Shown here: piece after piece, positions 326 to 7,519 of the stretch
How the letters are laid out: every line of letters starts with the position of its first letter
How positions within the stretch are numbered: the first letter of the stretch is position 1
Virus record (IMG/VR): IMGVR_UViG_3300044993_000633
Coordinates: 1 to 21,769 of that record
DNA: 21,769 nt
Origin: a virus
Strand: one strand, 5' to 3'
The notes under the pieces: model-generated
What the model saw: the letters and a program-made list of their open reading frames with translations, nothing else
Told to the model about the DNA's origin: nothing
Database searches by the model: none
Position numbers and translations under genes: made by a program

Positions 326-399
326 TGGTGCCCCGTGAGAGAATCGAACTCCCAACTTTGCTTTACGAAAGCACTGCATTACCATTATGCAAACAGGGC
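326..399 (-). tRNA. tRNA-Thr(CGT)
   Basis: Complete cloverleaf with encoded CCA. The acceptor pairs GCCCTGT with ACGGGGC, the anticodon loop is TTCGTAA and the T-loop TTCGATT. One mismatch (27-43) is present in the anticodon stem. Confidence 0.92.
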
Positions 400-405
400 T
401 TAAGA

Positions 406-768
406 TTACTCTCTATGATTGTTGGAAGTATGCCATTGACCATAAAAGCAATGCATAAACTCATGCCCATACCATTCTGGCTCATATGATACTTTAGGAG
501 ACATTATATGAACAGTGCATGTATTGTCATTTGGGTTTGCTGGTATTAAAGCAAATGCTGCTAAATCGCGGTTATTAATCCCTGTTTTTTTAGCAGCCTC
601 GAGTAATTCTTTTCTACTATTATAAGTCACTATAGTAATGGTAACACGATTTTTTTCAAAAGATGGTTCACCGAAAGTATACCCATCAACGCCTTTTCTA
701 CTATTTACAGATGTATCATTACATGATGCAAGCAAAAATAACAAAACAATGAAAATAAATTTTTTCAT
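406..768 (-). CDS. Lipoprotein with HExxH zinc-protease-like motif
   Basis: A 120-residue protein with a lipoprotein signal peptide: KK, a hydrophobic stretch and lipobox LASC with the lipidated Cys at 16. It should therefore be anchored in a host membrane facing the periplasm. Near the C-terminus is HEFMH (102-106) followed by G110 and H113, resembling a zinc metallopeptidase site, with spacing one residue longer than the classic metzincin pattern. A strong Shine-Dalgarno AGGAGG precedes the ATG. It lies in the same region as the putative holin and endolysin, so a lysis or envelope role is possible but unproven. No specific family was recognised. Confidence 0.75.
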   Translation of the reverse strand: MKKFIFIVLLFLLASCNDTSVNSRKGVDGYTFGEPSFEKNRVTITIVTYNSRKELLEAAKKTGINNRDLAAFALIPANPNDNTCTVHIMSPKVSYEPEWYGHEFMHCFYGQWHTSNNHRE

Positions 769-839
769 AGTAGTAGTCCTCCTACTACTATTTAGCCTTT
801 TAAGATGTTTAGATTAAAACACTAAACTTTGATAACTTT

Positions 840-1067
840 TTAATTATTTTCAATAGAAGCAGTAGGTAATAAAGGTTCTATTCTTGTTGTTGCCTTTGCT
901 CGGAAAATTATTGCCAATATACCAAGAATCCCTAAAACTGCTTCTTCAATAAGACTTTGTTGAATCTCTGTAGGTATAACTCCTAACCCATTAAGAATAG
1001 CTAAAATTGATGTTATCAAACCTACCCAAATAGTCCTAGATAACCACCATGGTTTTGTATCTTTCAT
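840..1067 (-). CDS. Small two-helix membrane protein, putative holin
   Basis: A 75-residue protein beginning MKDTKPWWLSRTIW. The start at 1067 is chosen because GGGAGAA precedes it; the longer frame would run into the neighbouring tRNA-Leu. Two hydrophobic segments (about residues 12-30 and 38-58) are separated by a short loop, followed by a charged tail RAKATTRI. This layout resembles small holin-like proteins found near phage endolysins, and a GH19 endolysin lies upstream at 3391-4137. The holin role is inferred from size, topology and context only. Confidence 0.6.
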   Translation of the reverse strand: MKDTKPWWLSRTIWVGLITSILAILNGLGVIPTEIQQSLIEEAVLGILGILAIIFRAKATTRIEPLLPTASIENN

Positions 1068-1118
1068 AAAATTTCTCCCATTGCGTTTAACGCAATAGTA
1101 TTTATCATTAGAAACTAA

Positions 1119-1203
1119 TGGTGCCCCAGGCCGGACTCGAACCAGCACGCCTTTCGGCAAATCATTTTGAGTGATTCGTGGCTACCAATTACACCACTGG
1201 GGC
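1119..1203 (-). tRNA. tRNA-Leu(CAA)
   Basis: Class II tRNA with acceptor GCCCCAG/CTGGGGC, A73 and encoded CCA. The anticodon loop is CTCAAAA, the variable arm contains GCCGAAAGGC, and the T-loop is TTCGAGT. Confidence 0.93.
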
Positions 1204-1295
1204 ATTTATAGAGACCCGCGTATGCCCGGGCGATAGAAGTAGTGTTCTATCTTTTAGTGACGCGCCACTACACACGTCACCTGTTGTATCTCTTA
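1204..1295 (-). ncRNA. Structured RNA copy 1 with complementary hairpin loops
   Basis: About 92 nt, repeated at 2624-2715 with one difference. On the minus strand, an outer AGAGAU/GUCUCU stem encloses three hairpins. Hairpin 1 (stem GTGACG/CGTCAC) has GTAGTG in its loop. Hairpin 2 (GATAGAA/TTCTATC) has the six-base loop CACTAC, an exact complement of GTAGTG. Hairpin 3 is CCCG/CGGG. It has no T-loop and no CCA, so it is not a tRNA. It follows tRNA-Leu(TAG) in the transcript and is probably released by tRNA processing. Confidence 0.7.
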
Positions 1296-1360
1296 ATTAA
1301 AAAAACTCCATAATGTGTCTTGAAGTAATATTAAGGACTACATACCTTTTCTTTACAAAT

Positions 1361-1445
1361 TGGTGCGGGTAGAGGGATTCGAACCCCCACAGATTACTCT
1401 GCCAGTACCTAAAACTGGTGCGGCTACCAATTTCGCCATACCCGC
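1361..1445 (-). tRNA. tRNA-Leu(TAG)
   Basis: Class II tRNA with acceptor GCGGGTA/TACCCGC, A73 and CCA. Anticodon arm CCAGT-TTTAGGT-ACTGG; T-loop TTCGAAT. Confidence 0.94.
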
Positions 1446-1471
1446 AAAATCAGTTAATTATATATAAAAAC

Positions 1472-1547
1472 TGGTGTCCCCCCGAGGAATCGAACCCCGT
1501 CCTCTTGTTCTTCAGACAAGCGCGCACACCAGCTACGCCAGAGAGAC
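1472..1547 (-). tRNA. tRNA-Phe(GAA)
   Basis: Acceptor GTCTCTC pairs with GGGGGAC using G-U wobbles, followed by A73 and CCA. Anticodon arm CTTGT-CTGAAGA-ACAAG; T-loop TTCGATT. Confidence 0.93.
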
Positions 1548-1579
1548 GCTAAATTTAAGAGATAAAATAGGACTAATCT

Positions 1580-1623
1580 AAAGTGCATTATAGCACCACT
1601 GGCCACATGAGCTACGTGACCAC
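1580..1623 (-). pseudogene. tRNA 5'-half-like fragment, no T-arm
   Basis: The minus strand has a D-arm-like hairpin (GGTCAC/GTGGCC around GTAGCTCAT) and a second hairpin GTGC-TATAAT-GCAC, then no T-arm, acceptor 3' strand or CCA. It may be a decayed tRNA or a small structured RNA. Confidence 0.4.
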
Positions 1624-1634
1624 AATTTAATAAC

Positions 1635-1712
1635 TGGTGGACCTTTCGGATTCGAACCGATTACTTGACGAGTTTAAACTCGCCTGAGCTTTTCCAAAGC
1701 ATCCCAAGGCCC
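1635..1712 (-). tRNA. Aberrant tRNA with CCA; anticodon unclear
   Basis: The acceptor (GGGCCTT/AAGGTCC), T-arm (TCGG-TTCGAAT-CCGA), A73 and CCA are good. The middle is odd. A short D-like hairpin GCTTTGGAAAAGC is followed by a palindromic arm GGCGAG-TTTAAA-CTCGTC, which gives a six-base anticodon loop. Alternatively TTGGAAA is a Ser(GGA) anticodon loop in a tRNA without a D-arm, and the palindrome is a class II variable arm. The sequence alone does not decide between these. Confidence 0.5.
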
Positions 1713-1720
1713 ATTATAGG

Positions 1721-1766
1721 GTGGGGCACTACTACTAGTTTTTAAGACCATCCAAGGTCACCCCAT
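1721..1766 (-). pseudogene. Minimal tRNA-like fragment
   Basis: A short GGGGT/GCCCC stem encloses a D-arm-like hairpin GACC-TTGGAT-GGTC. There is no recognisable anticodon arm or T-arm. It may be a decayed tRNA or part of a larger structured RNA. Confidence 0.3.
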
Positions 1767-1778
1767 AATCTTATCATC

Positions 1779-1848
1779 TGACCGCGGATATTCCAACCTG
1801 CATCCGTCTTGTTAACAGCGGGAAGCTCTGCTTATTAAGCTACCCGTC
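1779..1848 (-). pseudogene. Degenerate tRNA-Asn(GTT)-like sequence
   Basis: The D-arm (GCTT/GAGC) and an Asn anticodon loop CTGTTAA are recognisable, but the anticodon stem has two A-C mismatches, the T-loop reads TTGGAAT, the acceptor does not pair and CCA is absent. An apparently intact tRNA-Asn(GTT) is at 6446-6536. Confidence 0.5.
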
Positions 1849-1860
1849 GTTTATAAGGTA

Positions 1861-1961
1861 GATAGAATGGACAACTCTCGGGCAGTCAACACCACCCCAC
1901 CATTGAGCTACCAGACCGAAAGGACCGGGTAGGAATCGAACCTACTGCCTCCCATTCTATC
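1861..1961 (-). other. tRNA 3' half placed before a 5' half (permuted-like)
   Basis: In transcript order, a perfect T-arm (GTAGG-TTCGATT-CCTAC) and acceptor 3' strand CCGGTCC come first. Four bases later follow GGTCTGG, TA and a D-arm-like segment GCTCAATGGTG. The ends form a perfect 10-bp stem (GATAGAATGG with CCATTCTATC), stacked on GGCAG/CTGCC. This is the geometry of circularly permuted tRNA genes, but the acceptor has a U-U mismatch, CCA is absent and no normal anticodon can be assigned. Two adjacent tRNA fragments are an alternative. Confidence 0.4.
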
Positions 1962-1969
1962 AAACTCGT

Positions 1970-2059
1970 CAGTCCCGGAGAGAAACTAACTCTCGCTATC
2001 AGTTAATCTAACTGTCATGCCTTATTAAGGGCACCGCTCTGTCATTGAGCGACGGAACT
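1970..2059 (-). tRNA. tRNA-Leu(TAA)-like, 8-base anticodon loop
   Basis: The acceptor AGTTCCG/CGGGACT, D-arm GCTC/GAGC, a class II variable arm (CAGTTA/TAACTG) and T-stem GAGAG/CTCTC all pair perfectly. The anticodon stem GTGCC/GGCAT closes an eight-base loop CTTAATAA. The T-loop is TTAGTTT, position 73 is G and no CCA is encoded. It may be an unusual or impaired tRNA-Leu. Confidence 0.55.
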
Positions 2060-2072
2060 AAAATTTAATAAC

Positions 2073-2148
2073 TGGTGGACCGGGGCGACACCTGATCGCG
2101 ATCCGAATTGCTCTGAGTTACAGAGTTCCTCTATAGATTGAGCGGCCC
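2073..2148 (-). tRNA. Aberrant tRNA-like gene with CCA
   Basis: The acceptor GGGCCGC/CCGGTCC (last pair mismatched), A73 and CCA frame a tRNA-sized sequence. The inner arms fit poorly. One hairpin is CTCT-GTAACTC-AGAG (formally anticodon AAC) and the T-arm position reads GCGA-TCAGGTG-TCGC with no TTCRA. The identity cannot be assigned. Confidence 0.4.
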
Positions 2149-2160
2149 ATAAACTGTTTA

Positions 2161-2250
2161 GTAGAACCCCGGCAGGATTCGAACCTGCGCTAGGAATGCC
2201 AGTAACTGGAAGGCTTGACCTGCTTGTCTCTTACATCTACAGAGTTCTAC
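2161..2250 (-). other. tRNA-like RNA with canonical T-arm and 11-bp terminal stem
   Basis: GTAGAACTCTG and CGGGGTTCTAC form an 11-bp terminal stem with G-U pairs, enclosing a canonical T-arm GCAGG-TTCGAAT-CCTGC. The rest (for example CCAG-TTA-CTGG) does not make a normal D-arm or anticodon arm, and there is no CCA. Confidence 0.45.
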
Positions 2251-2264
2251 TGAACCGTTAATGA

Positions 2265-2575
2265 CACAACCGTTAGTTACCTATTTCAAGGTCCGGGCAG
2301 ATATATTCCTATTCTAGAACATATCACTTGTTTGTCCCATCAATAGTAGCTAGTAGTTACTCTAGCCTCTATCTCACTTCTCACTGCATCTTTACAGATG
2401 GGTGATACGAGCTAAGACATTCATGTGTATGTCTTAGTACCGGTAGTCACTTAGTCCTACCCACACGGAAGCCGGCTTTCTTTCCGACTGACTTTACTGA
2501 AACCTTCCGTAACACATAAACGGAATAGTCGCAGTCTTCCTGTGTCAAACTTAAAAACCAACAATGTCAAAGAGC
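2265..2575 (-). ncRNA. Gene-free, hairpin-rich stretch, possible ~300-nt RNA
   Basis: No ORF or tRNA was found. The stretch directly follows the promoter whose -10 is at 2584-2589, so it should be the 5' part of that transcript. Visible hairpins on the minus strand include a 9-bp CTAAGACAT/ATGTCTTAG and weaker ones around GTAGGACTAAGTGACTAC. It may be an independent structured RNA or a leader. No known RNA family was recognised. Confidence 0.35.
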
Positions 2576-2583
2576 ATGTTTTC

Positions 2584-2612
2584 TATATAATAAAATTTTT
2601 TAGTATTGTCAA
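2584..2612 (-). promoter_or_regulatory. Host-type promoter TTGACA-17-TATATA
   Basis: On the minus strand GG-TTGACA, a 17-bp spacer and TATATA. Reads left into the structured stretch and tRNAs. Confidence 0.75.
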
Positions 2613-2623
2613 CCTATAATTTT

Positions 2624-2715
2624 ATTTATAGAGACCCGCGTATGCCCGGGCGATAGAAGTAGTGTTCTATCTTTTAGTGACACGCCACTACACACGTCAC
2701 CTGTTGTATCTCTTA
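2624..2715 (-). ncRNA. Structured RNA copy 2 with complementary hairpin loops
   Basis: Identical to 1204-1295 except position 2682 (A instead of G). In the minus-strand RNA this turns a C-G pair of hairpin 1 into U-G, which still pairs; in the opposite strand it would be an A-C mismatch. That fits a functional minus-strand RNA. The promoter at 2742-2770 would start transcription about 20 nt before it. Its 5' segment CTGTTGTATCTCTTA (plus-strand reading) is duplicated in tandem at 2701-2730. Confidence 0.75.
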
Positions 2716-2741
2716 ACTGTTGTATCTCTTAAGATGTTTTC

Positions 2742-2770
2742 TATATAGTAAAGTTTTTCGGTGTTGTCAA
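2742..2770 (-). promoter_or_regulatory. Host-type promoter TTGACA-17-TATATA
   Basis: GG-TTGACA, 17-bp spacer, TATATA on the minus strand. The expected start near 2735 lies just ahead of structured RNA copy 2, making it the likely dedicated promoter of that RNA. Confidence 0.8.
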
Positions 2771-2804
2771 CCTATAATTTCATTTTTTATTTTTTAATTA
2801 TTTT

Positions 2805-3010
2805 TGACTATAGTTGACACTTGTGTAATAATTAAACCTTGATAAATCAATAAACAATTGATTTCTTTGTTCAATTAAATAACACAAGTATAAACTTAAA
2901 ATTATCGGTCTTTATCTGATGTTTGACCGATATTAGCCAGGATTATTATTTCAATCAGTCCTGTACGAACACAAAACATTTCAAGAACAATGCTGTTCTT
3001 TACTCTTTAC
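2805..3010 (-). other. Gene-free stretch with several hairpins
   Basis: This stretch follows the promoter at 3018-3046. Minus-strand hairpins in order: AAGAACA/TGTTCTT, CAGGA/TCCTG with CTGAT in its loop, ATCGGTC/GACCGAT with ATCAG in its loop (complementary to the previous loop), then a long AT-rich hairpin closed by ACTTGTGT/ACACAAGT with an inner AAATCAAT/ATTGATTT stem. No ORF was found. Confidence 0.4.
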
Positions 3011-3017
3011 ATATTTA

Positions 3018-3046
3018 TATATAACAAACGAAATACTGATTGTCAA
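3018..3046 (-). promoter_or_regulatory. Host-type promoter TTGACA-17-TATATA
   Basis: GG-TTGACA, 17-bp spacer, TATATA on the minus strand, directly downstream of tRNA-Glu and reading into the hairpin-rich stretch. Confidence 0.75.
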
Positions 3047-3056
3047 CCTATATTTT

Positions 3057-3133
3057 TGGTAGCCCCGACGGGTTTCGAACCCGCTTCTCTGCCTTGAAAG
3101 GGCAGCGACCTTCGCCAAGAAGTCCCCGGGGCC
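3057..3133 (-). tRNA. tRNA-Glu(TTC)
   Basis: Acceptor GGCCCCG/CGGGGCT, A73, CCA. Anticodon arm CTGCC-CTTTCAA-GGCAG; T-loop TTCGAAA. Confidence 0.93.
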
Positions 3134-3192
3134 ATAAATTCAAGGTTTACTAATTTAAAAAGTAAAATTATCAAATGTAAATTTATAAAATT

Positions 3193-3267
3193 TGGTGGAA
3201 CCTGGGAGAATCGAACTCCCGACCTTTTGTCTGCCAGACAAATGCTCTCCCGCTGAGCTAAGGTCCC
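3193..3267 (-). tRNA. tRNA-Ala(GGC)
   Basis: Acceptor GGGACCT/AGGTTCC, A73, CCA. Anticodon arm TTTGT-CTGGCAG-ACAAA; D-loop AGCGGGA; T-loop TTCGATT. Confidence 0.94.
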
Positions 3268-3301
3268 ATTAACGTATTTCTTGAAATTTTTAAACAATTT
3301 T

Positions 3302-3390
3302 TGGCGGAAGCGGTGGGATTTGAACCCACGATACCTTTAAGGTATACCGGTTTTCGAGACCAGCGCAATCAACCTCTCTGCCACGCTTCC
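3302..3390 (-). tRNA. tRNA-Ser(CGA)
   Basis: Class II tRNA with G73 and CCA. Anticodon loop CTCGAAA, variable arm ATACCTTAAAGGTAT, T-loop TTCAAAT. Its 5' end abuts the endolysin stop codon with no gap. Confidence 0.94.
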
Positions 3391-4137
3391 TTATTGTTTT
3401 TTATTTTTATTTGGCCAATTTAAAACACCTAAAATATGAGCTATCGCCCTGTATTTTTTTTCTCTATCTTCAATACCTTTAAGCCCTTTGTTAATAGGTC
3501 TAGTTACTGCAATAGTATCACTATAATCATCAATTTTAGGTTGAACTCTATTTTTCCAAAACCATATTGCTACTTTAGCAGCAATTTCAGGATTTTCAAC
3601 TAATTCTGGCTTTTCTTCTAAAGGTAATCCTAAAGCTTTTCCTGCTTTACGATAATTATCTCTGCCGGTTAATTGTATAAACCCCCTGCCGCGATATTTA
3701 TAACCATCCCCCGGGTTTATGTTACCCAATTCCTTAGCTTTTTTAGGGTTGTGTTTAATATCATATTTGTTAAAATAATTTTTATCGCCCATTTCTTCCA
3801 TAAATTGAAAATCAAGAGTTTCATGGGCGCATTGAGCTAAAAATTGAGAAAGTTGTCTACCTTTCATTCCAGCTTGTCTAGCCTGTTTAACTAAAGACTT
3901 TCCAATGGGAGTATTTAAAACTTTTATCATTTTATTAACTTCATGTGGATCAGCCTTAATTTTATTATTTTTTGCTTCTAGTTCTCTAGCTATTTGATCC
4001 ATGCTTTTAATTTCGCCAGGGGTAAAAAACCCTTTATGGATTAAATTTCCGGTTGCAGCCAAAGTCAAAGCAGCAACACCTCCTTTAACCCATTTAGAAA
4101 AATCTTCATTAAGATAATCAAATTCATAACTTCTCAT
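3391..4137 (-). CDS. GH19 chitinase-type endolysin
   Basis: A 248-residue protein whose region from about 70 to 240 is a glycoside hydrolase 19 (lysozyme/chitinase) domain: AQCAHETLDF with the likely catalytic Glu at 106, a second acidic pair at 114-115, and the hallmark RGRGFIQLTGRDNY. It should cut peptidoglycan for host lysis. The N-terminus MRSYEFDYLNE followed by a weakly hydrophobic segment (18-32) is not needed for catalysis; it resembles the short capsid-targeting peptides of T4 internal proteins, or could aid export. TATAAATA ends just before the ATG, so expression is probably late. It lies inside the tRNA array. Confidence 0.88.
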   Translation of the reverse strand: MRSYEFDYLNEDFSKWVKGGVAALTLAATGNLIHKGFFTPGEIKSMDQIARELEAKNNKIKADPHEVNKMIKVLNTPIGKSLVKQARQAGMKGRQLSQFLAQCAHETLDFQFMEEMGDKNYFNKYDIKHNPKKAKELGNINPGDGYKYRGRGFIQLTGRDNYRKAGKALGLPLEEKPELVENPEIAAKVAIWFWKNRVQPKIDDYSDTIAVTRPINKGLKGIEDREKKYRAIAHILGVLNWPNKNKKQ

Positions 4138-4142
4138 ATAGT

Positions 4143-4150
4143 TATTTATA
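4143..4150 (-). promoter_or_regulatory. T4-type late promoter TATAAATA
   Basis: The minus strand reads TATAAATA a few bases before the endolysin ATG. A T4-type start site would leave almost no leader. Confidence 0.55.
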
Positions 4151-4167
4151 TAAAAAATTTTTAATAA

Positions 4168-4245
4168 TGGTCGGAAAGAGAGGATTCGAACCTCCGATCT
4201 CCTGCTCCCGAAGCAGGCGCTTTAGCCAGACTAAGCTACTTTCCG
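4168..4245 (-). tRNA. tRNA-Pro(CGG)
   Basis: Acceptor CGGAAAG/CTTTCCG with the bacterial-Pro C1-G72 pair, A73, CCA. Anticodon arm CCTGC-TTCGGGA-GCAGG; T-loop TTCGAAT. Confidence 0.94.
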
Positions 4246-4260
4246 TTAAAATTTATGAAT

Positions 4261-4339
4261 TGGTAGGGATAGCAGGATTCGAACCTGCGATCTCAAGTCC
4301 CCCAGACTTGCGCGTTAGGCCTGACTACGCTATATCCCT
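4261..4339 (-). tRNA. tRNA-Pro(GGG)
   Basis: Acceptor AGGGATA/TATCCCT, A73, CCA. Anticodon arm CAAGT-CTGGGGG-ACTTG; T-loop TTCGAAT. A1-U72 is unusual for a bacterial-type Pro tRNA. Confidence 0.92.
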
Positions 4340-4365
4340 TTATTCTAGAGCTATAAATTAATTTC

Positions 4366-4456
4366 TGGCGGAGTCGGTGGGATTCGAACCCACGGTACAC
4401 TATTAGCGTACAATACCTTTCCAGGGTATCACCATCGGCCTCTCGGTCACGACTCC
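4366..4456 (-). tRNA. tRNA-Ser(GGA)
   Basis: Class II tRNA with G73 and CCA; acceptor GGAGTCG/CGACTCC, anticodon arm ATACC-CTGGAAA-GGTAT, variable arm GTACGCTAATAGTGTAC, T-loop TTCGAAT. Confidence 0.94.
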
Positions 4457-4530
4457 AATCAAATATTCATTTAAATTAAAAAATAACCAACCTTTAATAT
4501 TATCTGAGGCCGGATAATAAAAAACAAAAC

Positions 4531-4605
4531 TGGTGGTCGATGTAGGTACTGCCCCTACCATCTCTCGCTTATCAGGCGAGTGCTTTACTTCTAAGCTAAT
4601 CGACC
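4531..4605 (-). tRNA. tRNA-Ile(GAT), altered elbow
   Basis: All stems pair: acceptor GGTCGAT/ATCGACC, D-stem GCTT/AAGC, anticodon arm CTCGC-CTGATAA-GCGAG, T-stem GTAGG/CCTAC; A73 and CCA. The T-loop is GGCAGTA instead of TTCRANY, and the D-loop AGAAGTA has A18-G19 in place of G18-G19. Position 55 is G, so the 18-55 contact would be A-G; 54-58 is G-G. Confidence 0.85.
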
Positions 4606-4615
4606 GAAAATATTA

Positions 4616-4690
4616 TGGTACCCGGTGACGGTTACGCTCCGCCTTTTTTACCATGTCAAAGTAATGTTCTAACTAGTGAACTAACCGGGC
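4616..4690 (-). tRNA. tRNA-Val(GAC), altered elbow
   Basis: Acceptor GCCCGGT/ACCGGGT, D-stem GTTC/GAAC, anticodon arm TTACT-TTGACAT-GGTAA, T-stem GGCGG/CCGTC, A73 and CCA. T-loop AGCGTAA (A54, G55, C56, U58); D-loop ACTAGTTA has A18-G19. Confidence 0.83.
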
Positions 4691-4699
4691 ATTTTAAAC

Positions 4700-4773
4700 T
4701 GGTGCGTAGCCTAGGAATTGAACCTAGCCCAAGAGAAATACTTCTCCTGCCTACTACAGCGGCACCGCTACGC
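4700..4773 (-). tRNA. tRNA-Tyr(GTA)-like with a four-base anticodon loop
   Basis: Acceptor GCGTAGC/GCTACGC, D-stem TGCC/GGCA and canonical T-arm CTAGG-TTCAATT-CCTAG with A73 and CCA are perfect. The anticodon stem GAGAA/TTCTC leaves only GTAT as loop (or a six-base AGTATT loop with one more pair). GTA would read Tyr codons, which no other tRNA here covers, but the loop is three bases short and the class II arm of bacterial tRNA-Tyr is missing. Confidence 0.6.
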
Positions 4774-4789
4774 ATAAAACACTTCAAAC

Positions 4790-4866
4790 TGGGGCGACTG
4801 ACGGGGAACGATCCCGTCCCTACGGTTTCACAGACCGTTATGCTCACCACTAACACCACAGCCGCC
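4790..4866 (-). tRNA. tRNA-His(GTG), altered T-loop
   Basis: Encodes the His-specific extra G-1 opposite C73: acceptor GCGGCTG/CAGTCGC, then C73 and CCA. Anticodon arm ACGGT-CTGTGAA-ACCGT; T-stem ACGGG/CCCGT. The T-loop is ATCGTTC: U55 and C56 are kept, as is GG in the D-loop, but 54-58 is A-U instead of U-A. Confidence 0.88.
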
Positions 4867-4885
4867 AAACTGTAGAATAAATTTC

Positions 4886-4960
4886 TGGCGAGAGTGACGG
4901 GATTCGAACCCGCGTTTCCATTCCACAAGCCAGTGTCCTATCCAATTAGACAAACGAAGA
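4886..4960 (-). pseudogene. tRNA with intact 3' half, broken 5' half
   Basis: T-arm CGGG-TTCGAAT-CCCG, acceptor strand CACTCTC, G73 and CCA are intact, and a D-arm GTC-TAATTGGATA-GGAC is visible, but no 5' acceptor strand pairs with CACTCTC and the anticodon stem around TTGTGGA does not close. It is the tRNA next to the start of the homing-type nuclease, so insertion damage is possible. Confidence 0.5.
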
Positions 4961-5206
4961 GAATAGATTTCCAAATTGTCTTTGTTTATCTCTCGGGGTA
5001 TTAAGACTAAGATGAACTATCTTAGACAAAAAATTAATTATATAATGCCTGGACTGCCTCACCTATAATAAACTTAGTATCAGATATATTCTAATGTAAA
5101 TCAATCAAAAAGATAAATAGTCGTGCGGTAATCATAGAAGTTGCGTTTCTTTGAAACCCAGTCTGGATTCCAGGCTATCCCGCATCATATTTATCTGGAT
5201 ACCAGT
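4961..5206. other. Intergenic stretch upstream of the nuclease gene
   Basis: Contains a 7-bp hairpin CTAAGAT/ATCTTAG near 5008-5026 and AT-rich sequence. No tRNA, convincing promoter or gene was found. The plus-strand nuclease frame is open from 5141, but the start is placed at 5207. Confidence 0.4.
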
Positions 5207-5983
5207 ATGACCACTAATTATTCTTGCCCCGACTGCGGCAAAATGTGTAAATCTTTTAAATCTCTTCGCTCCCATATGAACTGGCACAATCCGAAGTATG
5301 CTAGTTCTTGTTCTGGCAACGGGGAAAAAATACGCAGTAGCCTCAAGGCCAAAGCTGCATACCAGCAGCAAGCAAAAGAAACTCTCTATCTAGAGTCTCC
5401 TAATTACTGTAAACATTGCAGCTCTGTATTACCTTACGCAAAACGCGCTAATATTTTCTGCAATAGTTCATGTTCAGCCTCTCATAACAATCCGAAAAGA
5501 GCCAAACCCAAACAACACAATCCTATCAAAAAAGAGAACAGAAACCCCAAAATAATAATATCTTGTAAAGAATGCGGGGACAATATAGCCGTTCCATCTT
5601 GGGAAAAGTCCCGAAAATATTGCTCGGTCGAGTGTAGCAATAAAAACAAGTATCATCCTAATTCCATTAAAAAACACACTAGTATATATAAAGGTTATAA
5701 AATGGATTCTGGTGCAGAATTAGCATTTGCACAGCTACTAGATTCTCATAATATTACCTGGATAAAAAACTCAACTAAATTTTTTACCTTCATAGATTCG
5801 AAGGGGGTTGTTAGAAAATACTACCCTGACTTTTATCTCACCGAATACGATCATTGGGTAGAAATAAAAGGAAAAAGATATATCCGAGAGGATGATGATC
5901 TAAGATTGAAGTCGGTAGGTGACAATATCGAACTCATAATGAGTCACGATATTAGGCTACCAAGTGTTATAATGGCGGACTAG
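5207..5983 (+). CDS. Zinc-finger PD-(D/E)XK nuclease, homing-type
   Basis: A 258-residue protein on the strand opposite the tRNA array. A C2H2-like finger (CPDC then HMNWH) is followed by two CxxC...CxxxC zinc motifs (CKHC/CNSSC and CKEC/CSVEC) that probably bind DNA. The C-terminal region from SGAELAF through KYYPDF to HWVEIKGKRY carries the E, PD and ExK residues of a Vsr/PD-(D/E)XK nuclease. Nucleases of this design in phages are usually mobile homing endonucleases. The ATG at 5207 puts MTTNY before the first finger; the frame is open from 5141. The stop lies within the acceptor end of tRNA-Asp on the other strand. Confidence 0.78.
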   Translation: MTTNYSCPDCGKMCKSFKSLRSHMNWHNPKYASSCSGNGEKIRSSLKAKAAYQQQAKETLYLESPNYCKHCSSVLPYAKRANIFCNSSCSASHNNPKRAKPKQHNPIKKENRNPKIIISCKECGDNIAVPSWEKSRKYCSVECSNKNKYHPNSIKKHTSIYKGYKMDSGAELAFAQLLDSHNITWIKNSTKFFTFIDSKGVVRKYYPDFYLTEYDHWVEIKGKRYIREDDDLRLKSVGDNIELIMSHDIRLPSVIMAD

Positions 5984-6047
5984 ACGGATCCTGACACCGC
6001 AACCTTCCGCTCGACAGGCGGATGCTCTTCCTTTGAGCTACTAGTCC
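5973..6047 (-). tRNA. tRNA-Asp(GTC), altered T-loop
   Basis: Acceptor GGACTAG/CTAGTCC, G73, CCA; D-arm GCTC-AAAGGAA-GAGC; anticodon arm TCCGC-CTGTCGA-GCGGA. The T-arm reads GCGGT-GTCAGGA-TCCGT: U55 and C56 are kept with GG in the D-loop, but 54-58 is G-G and the last stem pair is U-U. Its 3' end overlaps the nuclease stop codon antisense. Confidence 0.83.
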
Positions 6048-6154
6048 ATTTTTACTGATAGGTAGACACTGAACCACACCTAGCAGTCCCCGCTCCCATT
6101 GATATAGAGGGATTTTACTAGACTTTTACTCGTCCGCCCCTCTAGGGTTGTAAT
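6048..6154 (-). other. tRNA-sized gap with weak hairpins
   Basis: Minus-strand hairpins such as CCC-TAGA-GGG and TCCC/GGGA are present, but no tRNA fold or ORF. It may be a decayed tRNA or spacer RNA. Confidence 0.3.
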
Positions 6155-6230
6155 TGGAGGACCCGGTCGGACTCGAACCGACAACCTAGGGATTAAAAGT
6201 CCCACGCTCTGCCTATTGAGCTACGGGTCC
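6155..6230 (-). tRNA. tRNA-Lys(TTT)
   Basis: Acceptor GGACCCG/CGGGTCC, U73, CCA. Anticodon arm TGGGA-CTTTTAA-TCCCT; D-loop with GG; T-loop TTCGAGT. Confidence 0.94.
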
Positions 6231-6281
6231 GTAATAACTGCTCAATATCGGCTGTAGACAGAACTTAATCTGTCTTTAAAC

Positions 6282-6355
6282 TGGCATATCCTCCAGAAGT
6301 CAAACCTGGGCCGTCGGTTTTGGAAACTGAAATGCTATCATAACACCTAGGGCAC
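6282..6355 (-). tRNA. tRNA-Trp(CCA), compensated elbow
   Basis: Anticodon loop TTCCAAA; acceptor GTGCCCT/AGGATAT with one C-A mismatch; G73, CCA; D-stem GTGT/GCAT; T-stem CCAGG/TCTGG. The T-loop is TTTGACT (U56 for C56) and the D-loop TATGATA has A19 for G19, giving a Watson-Crick A19-U56 pair. Position 8 is A and 14 is U, the reverse of the usual U8-A14. The anticodon stem also has one A-C mismatch. The 11-24 pair is U-A. Confidence 0.82.
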
Positions 6356-6362
6356 ATAAACT

Positions 6363-6437
6363 TGGAGCCGGGAGTTGGATTTTAACCAACCTTCTCTTGC
6401 TTTGCAGGCAAGCGTATAGACACTCTACCACCCCGGC
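6363..6437 (-). tRNA. tRNA-Cys(GCA), compensated elbow
   Basis: Acceptor GCCGGGG/TCCCGGC, U73, CCA; anticodon arm CTTGC-CTGCAAA-GCAAG; T-stem GTTGG/CCAAC. The T-loop TTAAAAT has A56 and the D-loop AGTGTCT has U19, giving a Watson-Crick U19-A56 pair in place of G19-C56. G15 faces G48, as in E. coli tRNA-Cys. Confidence 0.87.
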
Positions 6438-6445
6438 ATCAAAAC

Positions 6446-6536
6446 TGGCTGGGCTAGATGGATTCGAACCATCATACCCCTCACGGGGAATACAACGCAT
6501 TAACAGTGCGTCCTCTTACCATTAGAGTATAGCCCA
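6446..6536 (-). tRNA. tRNA-Asn(GTT) with class II variable arm
   Basis: Acceptor TGGGCTA/TAGCCCA with U1-A72, G73 (typical for Asn) and CCA; anticodon arm ACGCA-CTGTTAA-TGCGT; canonical T-arm GATGG-TTCGAAT-CCATC. About 20 nt follow the anticodon arm and form CCCC-GTGA-GGGG, a GNRA-capped variable arm normally restricted to Leu, Ser, Tyr and Sec tRNAs. Confidence 0.88.
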
Positions 6537-6551
6537 ATAATCTTATAAATT

Positions 6552-6612
6552 GGGGTGCCCTATCCCTTGGTATAGAAGACCAAAAGATTAATCTCTTGCT
6601 ATGCCGACACCC
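6552..6612 (-). tRNA. T-armless tRNA-Arg(TCT)-like, copy A
   Basis: Acceptor GGGTGTC/GGCACCC pairs fully and an anticodon arm TTGGT-CTTCTAT-ACCAA has an Arg(TCT) loop. A hairpin AAGAG-ATTAAT-CTTTT sits in the D-arm position, but only six bases (GGGATA) separate the anticodon arm from the acceptor, so no T-arm exists. CCA is absent. It is part of a duplicated unit. Confidence 0.45.
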
Positions 6613-6681
6613 AACATAGCCGTAGTTGTCTATATTTCTAAGATTCAGACAACAAATTCTTATACCTGTAGTCAATAGACC

Positions 6682-6742
6682 GGGGTGCCCTATCCCTTGG
6701 TATAGAAGACCAAAAGATTAATCTCTTGCTATGCCGACACCC
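6682..6742 (-). tRNA. T-armless tRNA-Arg(TCT)-like, copy B
   Basis: Sequence identical to copy A at 6552-6612. Exact conservation after duplication, including the acceptor stem, could mean recent duplication or selection. Confidence 0.45.
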
Positions 6743-6906
6743 AACATAGCCGTAGTTGTCTACCGTTCTGGGTTTATTCCCAGTCAGTATAAGAATCAGA
6801 CAACAAATTCTTATACCTATTGCCCCCTTCATTTTTTTAGGACAATTTAATAATAAAAATACATTTTCTTTATAATTAGGTTACTAATTAACGAATTGTT
6901 GACCTA

Positions 6907-6935
6907 TATATATACATTGTTGTCCGTGTTGTCAA
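6907..6935 (-). promoter_or_regulatory. Host-type promoter TTGACA-17-TATATA
   Basis: GG-TTGACA, 17-bp spacer, TATATA on the minus strand; reads into the duplicated RNA units and the tRNAs beyond. Confidence 0.75.
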
Positions 6936-6971
6936 CCGATTTTTCAAAAAATACCGACTTTTTTAAAAAAT

Positions 6972-7059
6972 TGGAGGACGTAGTGGGATTCGAACCCACA
7001 CGGCGAATTAACGCGGCAGATTAAGAGTCTGCTGGACCAGCCAATTGTCCAATACGTCC
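6972..7059 (-). tRNA. tRNA-Lys(CTT) with enlarged variable region
   Basis: Acceptor GGACGTA/TACGTCC, U73, CCA; D-stem GGAC/GTCC; anticodon arm GCAGA-CTCTTAA-TCTGC; T-arm GTGGG-TTCGAAT-CCCAC. Sixteen bases (with GCG-TTAATT-CGC) lie between anticodon and T-arms, instead of the usual five for Lys. Confidence 0.88.
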
Positions 7060-7069
7060 ATTTAATTAT

Positions 7070-7146
7070 TGGAGTCCTCGGGGAAACTCGAATTCCCGGC
7101 CTTCAGATTCGTAGTCTGATGCTCTATCCAACTGAGCTACGAGGAC
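7070..7146 (-). tRNA. tRNA-Arg(ACG)
   Basis: Acceptor GTCCTCG/CGAGGAC, U73, CCA; anticodon arm TCAGA-CTACGAA-TCTGA; T-loop TTCGAGT. A34 would normally be edited to inosine to read CGN codons. Confidence 0.94.
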
Positions 7147-7154
7147 TAAATTAA

Positions 7155-7232
7155 TGGAGCGCCAGGCAGGATTCGAACCCGCATGTATCCATTAGCTTTC
7201 TCTTGATTCGAAGTCAAGCGGCATACTGGCGC
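7155..7232 (-). tRNA. tRNA-Arg(TCG) lacking a D-arm
   Basis: Acceptor GCGCCAG/CTGGCGC, U73 and CCA, anticodon arm CTTGA-CTTCGAA-TCAAG and T-arm GCGGG-TTCGAAT-CCTGC are intact. Only seven bases separate acceptor and anticodon arm, so there is no D-arm; 19 bases follow the anticodon arm and contain AATGGATA, which looks like a D-loop. Total length is normal, as if D and variable regions had swapped sides. Confidence 0.75.
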
Positions 7233-7249
7233 AATAATAAAGAGTAATC

Positions 7250-7325
7250 TGGTGCTGCTGGAGGGGATCGAACCCTCGACCTCTTCCTTACCAAGGAAGT
7301 GCAACTTCCGCTGTGCTACAGCAGC
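7250..7325 (-). tRNA. tRNA-Thr(GGT)
   Basis: Acceptor GCTGCTG/CAGCAGC, A73, CCA; anticodon arm CTTCC-TTGGTAA-GGAAG; T-loop TTCGATC. Confidence 0.94.
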
Positions 7326-7332
7326 AAATATT

Positions 7333-7407
7333 TGGTTGCCCCCCTAGGGCTCGAACCTAGATTGACGGATTCAAAGTCCGCTCTCTTGCCAATTAGAGGA
7401 AGGGGCA
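7333..7407 (-). tRNA. tRNA-Gln(TTG)
   Basis: Acceptor TGCCCCT/GGGGGCA with the Gln-type U1-A72 pair, A73, CCA; anticodon loop CTTTGAA; T-loop TTCGAGC. Confidence 0.94.
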
Positions 7408-7443
7408 ATTTGTTCTTAATGTAATATTAGAAAAACAACATTT

Positions 7444-7519
7444 TGGATCCCCGGGATGGCTCCGCCCCATCAACCTCCAGGTTCAGAGCCTGGCGTTCTA
7501 CTAATTGAACTACCGGGGA
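7444..7519 (-). tRNA. tRNA-Gln(CTG), altered elbow
   Basis: Acceptor TCCCCGG/CCGGGGA, U73, CCA; D-stem GTTC/GAAC; anticodon arm CCAGG-CTCTGAA-CCTGG; T-stem GATGG/CCATC. The T-loop is GGCGGAG (G54, G55, C56, G58) and the D-loop AATTAGTA has A18-G19, the same paired change as in Ile and Val. Confidence 0.86.

Follow-up and report, generated by a model that had tools for sequence, protein, structure and literature searches.

In a 21.8-kb virus record (IMG/VR record IMGVR_UViG_3300044993_000633, positions 1 to 21,769; here called the window), seven of roughly 24 predicted tRNA genes, all on the minus strand between 329 and 7519, depart from the canonical elbow contacts G18-U55, G19-C56, and U54-A58. 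Judged from their sequences and those of similar tRNAs across other viruses, these predicted genes are almost certainly real and maintained, with near-invariant elbow contacts swapped for matching ones. The wider reading, which adds a driver and treats the alternative elbows as an escape from a factor able to recognize the canonical T-loop or elbow, is in our judgment an even bet. Few bases in biology are as conserved as G18, G19, U55, and C56, which textbooks describe as fixed. Bases 19 and 56 form a tertiary Watson-Crick pair, the exposed face of which many partners read, the ribosome among them, and base 18 stacks into the T-loop (PMC4810234).

Seven noncanonical tRNAs in the window

Window tRNAs were called with a cloverleaf scanner of our own, with Rfam RF00005 (the source of the bit scores below), and with ARAGORN. 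The scanner weighs stems, U8, A14, A21, the anticodon loop, and CCA, is blind to positions 18-19 and the T-loop, and leaves out badly mismatched tRNAs. It found 23 tRNAs, among them all seven that a sequence-only reading had singled out, with their loops as that reading gave them. Shuffled windows scored at most 22.4; six of the seven reached at least 24.3, and the Trp gene, at 21.3, lies within this noise. The 16 other scanner tRNAs (329..7407, minus strand) all carry G18G19 and U55C56 and provide an internal control.

The G18-U55 contact is replaced by A18-G55 in tRNA-Ile(GAT), tRNA-Val(GAC), and tRNA-Gln(CTG), all with CCA encoded and stems free of mismatches. In Ile (4534..4605; 54.9 bits), D-loop AGAAGTA (4586-4592) and T-loop GGCAGTA (4547-4553) also give G54-G58 and retain G19-C56, as do D-loop AATTAGTA (7499-7506) and T-loop GGCGGAG (7460-7466) in Gln (7447..7519; 52.8 bits). 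Val (4619..4690; 45.2 bits) pairs D-loop ACTAGTTA (4670-4677) with T-loop AGCGTAA (4632-4638) and has A54-U58; its D-loop has 8 bases, so that the register is a choice, and the chosen one retains G19-C56. The 19-56 contact is swapped in two others. In tRNA-Cys(GCA) (6366..6437; 55.8 bits), D-loop AGTGTCT (6418-6424) and T-loop TTAAAAT (6379-6385) give U19-A56 with G18-U55 retained, and Cys tRNAs on other viral contigs share this T-loop. In tRNA-Trp(CCA) (6285..6355; 29.2 bits), which scores lowest of the seven and was not called by ARAGORN, D-loop TATGATA (6336-6342) and T-loop TTTGACT (6298-6304) give A19-U56 along with A8-U14. The remaining two keep D-loop GG and U55 and change only at 54-58: tRNA-His(GTG) (4793..4865; 46.9 bits, stems without mismatch; T-loop ATCGTTC, 4806-4812) has A54-U58, and tRNA-Asp(GTC) (5976..6047; 49.6 bits, not called by ARAGORN; T-loop GTCAGGA, 5989-5995) has G54-G58.

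These assignments at 18-55, 19-56, and 54-58, all claimed from the letters alone, were recovered by both the scanner and Rfam RF00005. The reversed 8-14 pair is likewise present, although any coupling there amounts to one weak tRNA. The description of all seven as having good stems holds for five, whose stems are full or nearly full, and fails for Trp, where 4-69 and 29-41 are A-C mismatches, and for Asp, where 53-61 is a U-U mismatch. All seven encode CCA, the anticodon loops of the window tRNAs are ordinary by the scanner, and the set has the complete cloverleaf, normal arm lengths, U8-A14, and U33 of functional tRNA genes, Trp only in part. The five tRNAs lacking G18G19 (Cys, Trp, Ile, Val, and Gln-CTG) are the same five that lack U55C56 (n = 23, p = 3e-5).

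Covariation and intactness in other viruses

Covariation was tested by predicting the T-loop base of tRNAs that a scan of IMG/VR had picked out by a common D-arm carrying a single altered base; the viral contigs sampled include near relatives. Among 288 viral tRNAs examined first, G55 accompanied A18, U56 accompanied A19, and the partner of A56 was U19 or, in some Cys tRNAs, A19. When tRNAs were selected by D-loop only and counted as unique sequences among the matches listed, A18 was accompanied by G55 in 40 of 43, A19 by U56 in 59 of 61, U19 by A56 in 3 of 5, and C19 by G56 in 13 of 14, for a predicted partner in 115 of 123 overall. Because the D-loop-selected A19, U19, and C19 tRNAs carry the matching base 56, all four Watson-Crick pairs (G-C, A-U, U-A, and C-G) are found at 19-56, the behavior of a base-paired tertiary contact. 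Among 298 tRNAs with 7-base D-loops, which leave no choice of register, 18-55 was G-U in 249, A-G in 41, G-C in 5, and something else in 3, and every one of the 41 A18 tRNAs carried G55. Mutual information in this group was 0.56 bits at 18-55 and 0.34 at 19-56, with at most 0.19 elsewhere among the 49 D- by T-loop pairs.

The sequence-only reading had described matched changes at all three contacts. Selection by D-loop alone bore out the linkage at 18-55 and 19-56; 54-58 varies with no partner in the D-loop. What that reading overlooked is a change at base 60, which turns from a pyrimidine to mostly a purine when 54-58 is A-U, A-A, or G-G, the swaps seen in place of U54-A58; the 15-48 pair is also less often standard in these tRNAs. 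Not every elbow is matched. Most matches in a scan with the D-arm GTTCAATTAGTAGAAC were coding sequence, and two were tRNAs, one in the archaeal virus HGTV-1 and the other a His tRNA (locus L144) whose A18 is left uncompensated by a T-loop that has U55 and A56.

Aside from their elbows, rewired tRNAs resemble canonical ones: U8-A14 is kept in 93 versus 93%, A21 in 91 versus 87%, U33 in 94 versus 97%, the 15-48 pair in 78 versus 80%, and perfect stems in 56 versus 59%. The claim that the changes are compensatory rather than products of decay is thus strongly supported, since the rewired tRNAs are otherwise intact and the changes are linked elsewhere in viruses. Decaying pseudogenes would account for the broken tRNA-like pieces in the window (1560-2560 and 4880-5000) and for the weak Trp gene, but we find this explanation barely conceivable given matched changes alongside intact stems, U8-A14, U33, and a mostly encoded CCA, and the covariation itself already contradicts decay.

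Distribution among viruses

Noncanonical elbows occurred in 403 of 1,234 viral tRNAs, a partly selected set; the T-loop was altered in 388 of them and the D-loop alone in 15. In loci that were not picked for a rewired tRNA, 33 of 320 tRNAs were rewired at 55/56. The 233 rewired tRNAs, from 122 loci, form 205 clusters at 80% stem identity and represent every amino acid, and rewiring is a change that arose many times in viruses. It clusters by contig (chi2 of 478 versus a permutation maximum of 137) and, within contigs, by type (543 of 629 pairs of the same type, versus a permutation maximum of 494). The extreme case is the 131-kb phage G874, whose portal and contractile-tail genes are T4-like and in which 31 of 32 tRNAs carry G55; a search for its cultured relatives with a single protein as query found none. 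Two further contigs have G55 in 30 of 37 tRNAs (G875) and in 12 of 18 (G878), the latter with three additional U55G56 tRNAs, two of them clearly C19.

In five arrays, rewired stems were most like canonical tRNAs of the same amino acid, which were among the top three matches for 67 of 92 (chance, ~0.14; canonical control, 249 of 300), and these sets were therefore converted tRNA by tRNA. The same similarity rules out remolding of a whole set from one rewired ancestor. Diversification of T-arms against recombination between tRNA genes is ruled out as well, the T-loops of G874 being uniform.

These patterns bear on compensated drift, in which an elbow pair of a weakly constrained phage tRNA mutates and a second mutation repairs it, with no external driver. 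Drift is the main rival, and several observations suit it: uncompensated intermediates exist (A18-U55, A19-C56, and U19-C56), Watson-Crick swaps are the usual product of RNA drift, and one bacterial clade has the same A19-U56 swap in a housekeeping tRNA-Gly. We nevertheless consider it unlikely, because rewired tRNAs are no looser at other conserved positions, rewiring is strongly clustered by virus and type, and one phage made the same non-Watson-Crick swap in nearly its whole set, one tRNA after another.

Cultured viruses and cellular genomes

Rewired elbows also occur in cultured viruses. Sinorhizobium phage Phosso has A19-U56 in Thr(CGT), C19-G56 in a CAT tRNA, and a weaker Pro(TGG) with A18-G55; Vibrio phage 2.275.O has A18-G55 in its Tyr and Cys tRNAs; Xanthomonas phage X1 has A19-U56 in Ala(TGC), along with 54-58 variants; and HGTV-1 has A18-G55 in Asn, Trp, and Asp, at sites annotated as tRNAs by the depositors.

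Cellular genomes were sampled from a few phyla with single D-arm sequences, a control that does not imply a general lack of such elbows in cells. Within it, the A18 D-arm was in no tRNA of 398 Pseudomonadota or 199 Bacillota genomes (two cellular matches are not tRNAs), and a different A18 D-arm was in no tRNA of 120 archaeal genomes. No clean tRNA was recognized among the matches listed for the Cys T-loop TTAAAAT in cellular genomes. The sole cellular case in the genomes scanned came from the A19 D-arm: of 395 Bacteroidota genomes, 6 have it, in each instance within a chromosomal tRNA-Gly(UCC) that carries U56 and lies beside Thr, Tyr, and Thr tRNAs. This is a housekeeping tRNA (L525-L534), present in at least two copies in some genomes, which suggests that A19-U56, at least, works in a cell. 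Capture from host lineages already bearing these elbows draws on this clade, whose T-arm is matched by some phage Gly(TCC) tRNAs. It is very improbable: Vibrio and Sinorhizobium phages have A18 tRNAs, yet the bacteria and archaea searched yielded none, and every amino acid is affected.

What may drive the rewiring

Escape from a reader of the canonical T-loop or elbow fits these data best. The swaps, of G19-C56 for A-U, U-A, or C-G, of G18-U55 for A-G, and of U54-A58 for A-U, G-G, or A-A, almost certainly preserve the L-shaped fold, and each altered T-loop departs from the consensus UUC.A at one position or more. The factor evaded would read this region in all tRNAs and could be a tRNA-cleaving immune effector or, alternatively, a T-loop modification enzyme on which a defense or quality-control step depends. 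The T-loop would be the part attacked and the D-loop change would repair the fold, because 54-58 changes occur with GG in place and D-loop-only changes are rare (15/403). We infer escape because the fold is kept, several solutions are used, whole sets are converted, and rewiring clusters by virus. A host tRNA-cleaving defense, the agent proposed from the sequence alone, may be what is escaped, and would fit the whole-set conversion, the several solutions, and the intact remainder of the tRNAs. More broadly, and tentatively, an unrecognized immune effector or phage weapon may spot canonical elbows, with bacterial and archaeal viruses repeatedly converting their tRNAs, sometimes the whole set.

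Known nucleases give such a reader some precedent. The phage-defense tRNase AriB makes base-specific D-loop contacts, and U16C impairs cleavage (PMC12409363); Septu is reported to cut the variable loop of tRNA-Tyr (PMC13096335) and VapC52 the variable or anticodon loop (PMC13273310). Because these enzymes act on the D-loop or on variable and anticodon loops, recognition of the elbow by such a nuclease is plausible but unproven.

Several observations weigh against escape. The literature searched yielded no phage-defense nuclease that reads the elbow, nor does any gene of the window, or any flanking the G874 array, suggest one. The majority of viral tRNAs are canonical, as are 16 of the window's 23. 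Finally, Cys tRNAs with A56 sometimes have A19, so that an A-A combination results and pairing is not always restored.

Two other drivers were considered. Rewired elbows might serve as a self mark, protecting the phage's own set from a nuclease that the phage makes or activates and that degrades host tRNAs whose elbows are canonical. Near-complete rewired sets in some phages are what replacement of host tRNAs would require, but many phages with rewired tRNAs, that of the window included, keep mostly canonical tRNAs, which would be destroyed, and no candidate tRNA nuclease was present among 13 proteins scanned in ~37 kb around the G874 array; we give this idea little credence. Alternatively, the new elbows may fold without the host modifications T54, Psi55, and Gm18, if these are outpaced by the burst of phage tRNA. 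Changes at U55, G18, and U54 do remove the targets of TruB (Psi55), TrmH (Gm18), and TrmA (T54). Independence from modification is improbable all the same, as A19-U56 is weaker than G-C and retains U54 and U55, and most phage tRNAs remain canonical.

Other features of the window

The window appears to hold further tRNA-like elements, all on the minus strand where a strand is given. Two copies of a short element (6551-6640 and 6683-6770, minus), identical by eye over ~80 bases, have a 7-bp acceptor GGGTGTC/GGCACCC and an anticodon loop CTTCTAT (TCT, Arg) without a T-arm, possibly an arm-less tRNA or merely a hairpin repeat. A tRNA-Arg(TCG)-like sequence (7158-7232, minus; 39.5 bits) has a canonical T-arm, no clear D-arm ahead of the anticodon arm, and a D-loop-like stretch, AGCTAATGGATA, in the variable region. 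A second His(GTG)-like tRNA (4880-5000, minus) combines a good T-arm and CCA with a broken 5' acceptor strand, for which a possible matching strand lies ~30 bases upstream. Another sequence (4701-4775, minus) has a good acceptor, T-arm TTCAATT, CCA, and an odd anticodon loop, AAGTATTT (perhaps GTA, Tyr, without U33), and is called by neither Rfam nor ARAGORN. Degenerate tRNA-like pieces are dense at 1560-2560, and a repeat is common to 1203-1290 and 2628-2715. At other loci (L087 and L114; L094, L095, L099, L100, and L111), odd tRNA-like genes carry the T-loop TTAAAAT, including one with a 12-base anticodon loop (perhaps TCT) and Thr(TGT) tRNAs whose variable loop is class II-like.

Among the proteins, a RecA-like one is 64 to 68% identical to those of Phosso, Vibrio phage 2.275.O, Atu_ph07, CBB, GAP32, and RaK2, which are large tailed phages. 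A search for relatives by way of a 514-amino-acid protein returned none, and BLAST of the tRNA array against phages gave short matches to individual tRNAs only. Between tRNA genes, a 280-amino-acid protein (5141-5983, plus strand) has a C2H2-like zinc finger, below the Pfam cutoff, and a PDFYL...VEIKG stretch resembling a PD-(D/E)XK homing endonuclease.

Relation to known systems and significance

The closest parallel is the work of van den Berg (2023; PMC10264068), where sequence changes in phage tRNA arrays were likewise proposed to evade tRNA-cleaving defense. Those changes lie in the anticodon loop, and the text does not mention the T-loop, D-loop, or elbow; here the anticodon loop is ordinary, with U33 retained in 94% of rewired tRNAs, and the matched changes are in elbow bases of the D- and T-loops. 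Natural, functional tRNAs with something other than U-A at 54-58 are known from eukaryotic tRNA-Ala (A54/A58 with R15/A48; Westhof 2020, PMC7566577), a form that bacteria and archaea are said to lack. The less standard 15-48 of viral tRNAs altered at 54-58 recalls that linkage, but the eukaryotic case concerns a single isoacceptor in some eukaryotes and leaves 18-55 and 19-56 unaltered. G18G19 and the TPsiC motif are also missing from tRNA-Pyl and mitochondrial tRNAs (review, PMC7609411); there the contact between the loops is altered, reduced, or lost, whereas in the viral tRNAs it is replaced and kept through other bases. The Bacteroidota tRNA-Gly(UCC) has the same A19-U56 elbow in a cell, in one isoacceptor of one clade, compared with all amino acids in viruses. 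In open-access full texts we found no description of phage tRNAs in which 18-55 or 19-56 had changed as a matched pair, and novelty is to that extent provisional.

Viruses show that every elbow contact is replaceable, and which replacements persist, across all amino acids, in what amounts to a mutational scan of this region carried out by nature. Rewired elbows are a reason that tRNA finders miss phage tRNAs, and the tRNAs that bear them are candidate orthogonal tRNA bodies. They also offer a sharp lead toward whatever recognizes canonical elbows in infected cells, one that the cultured examples make testable now.

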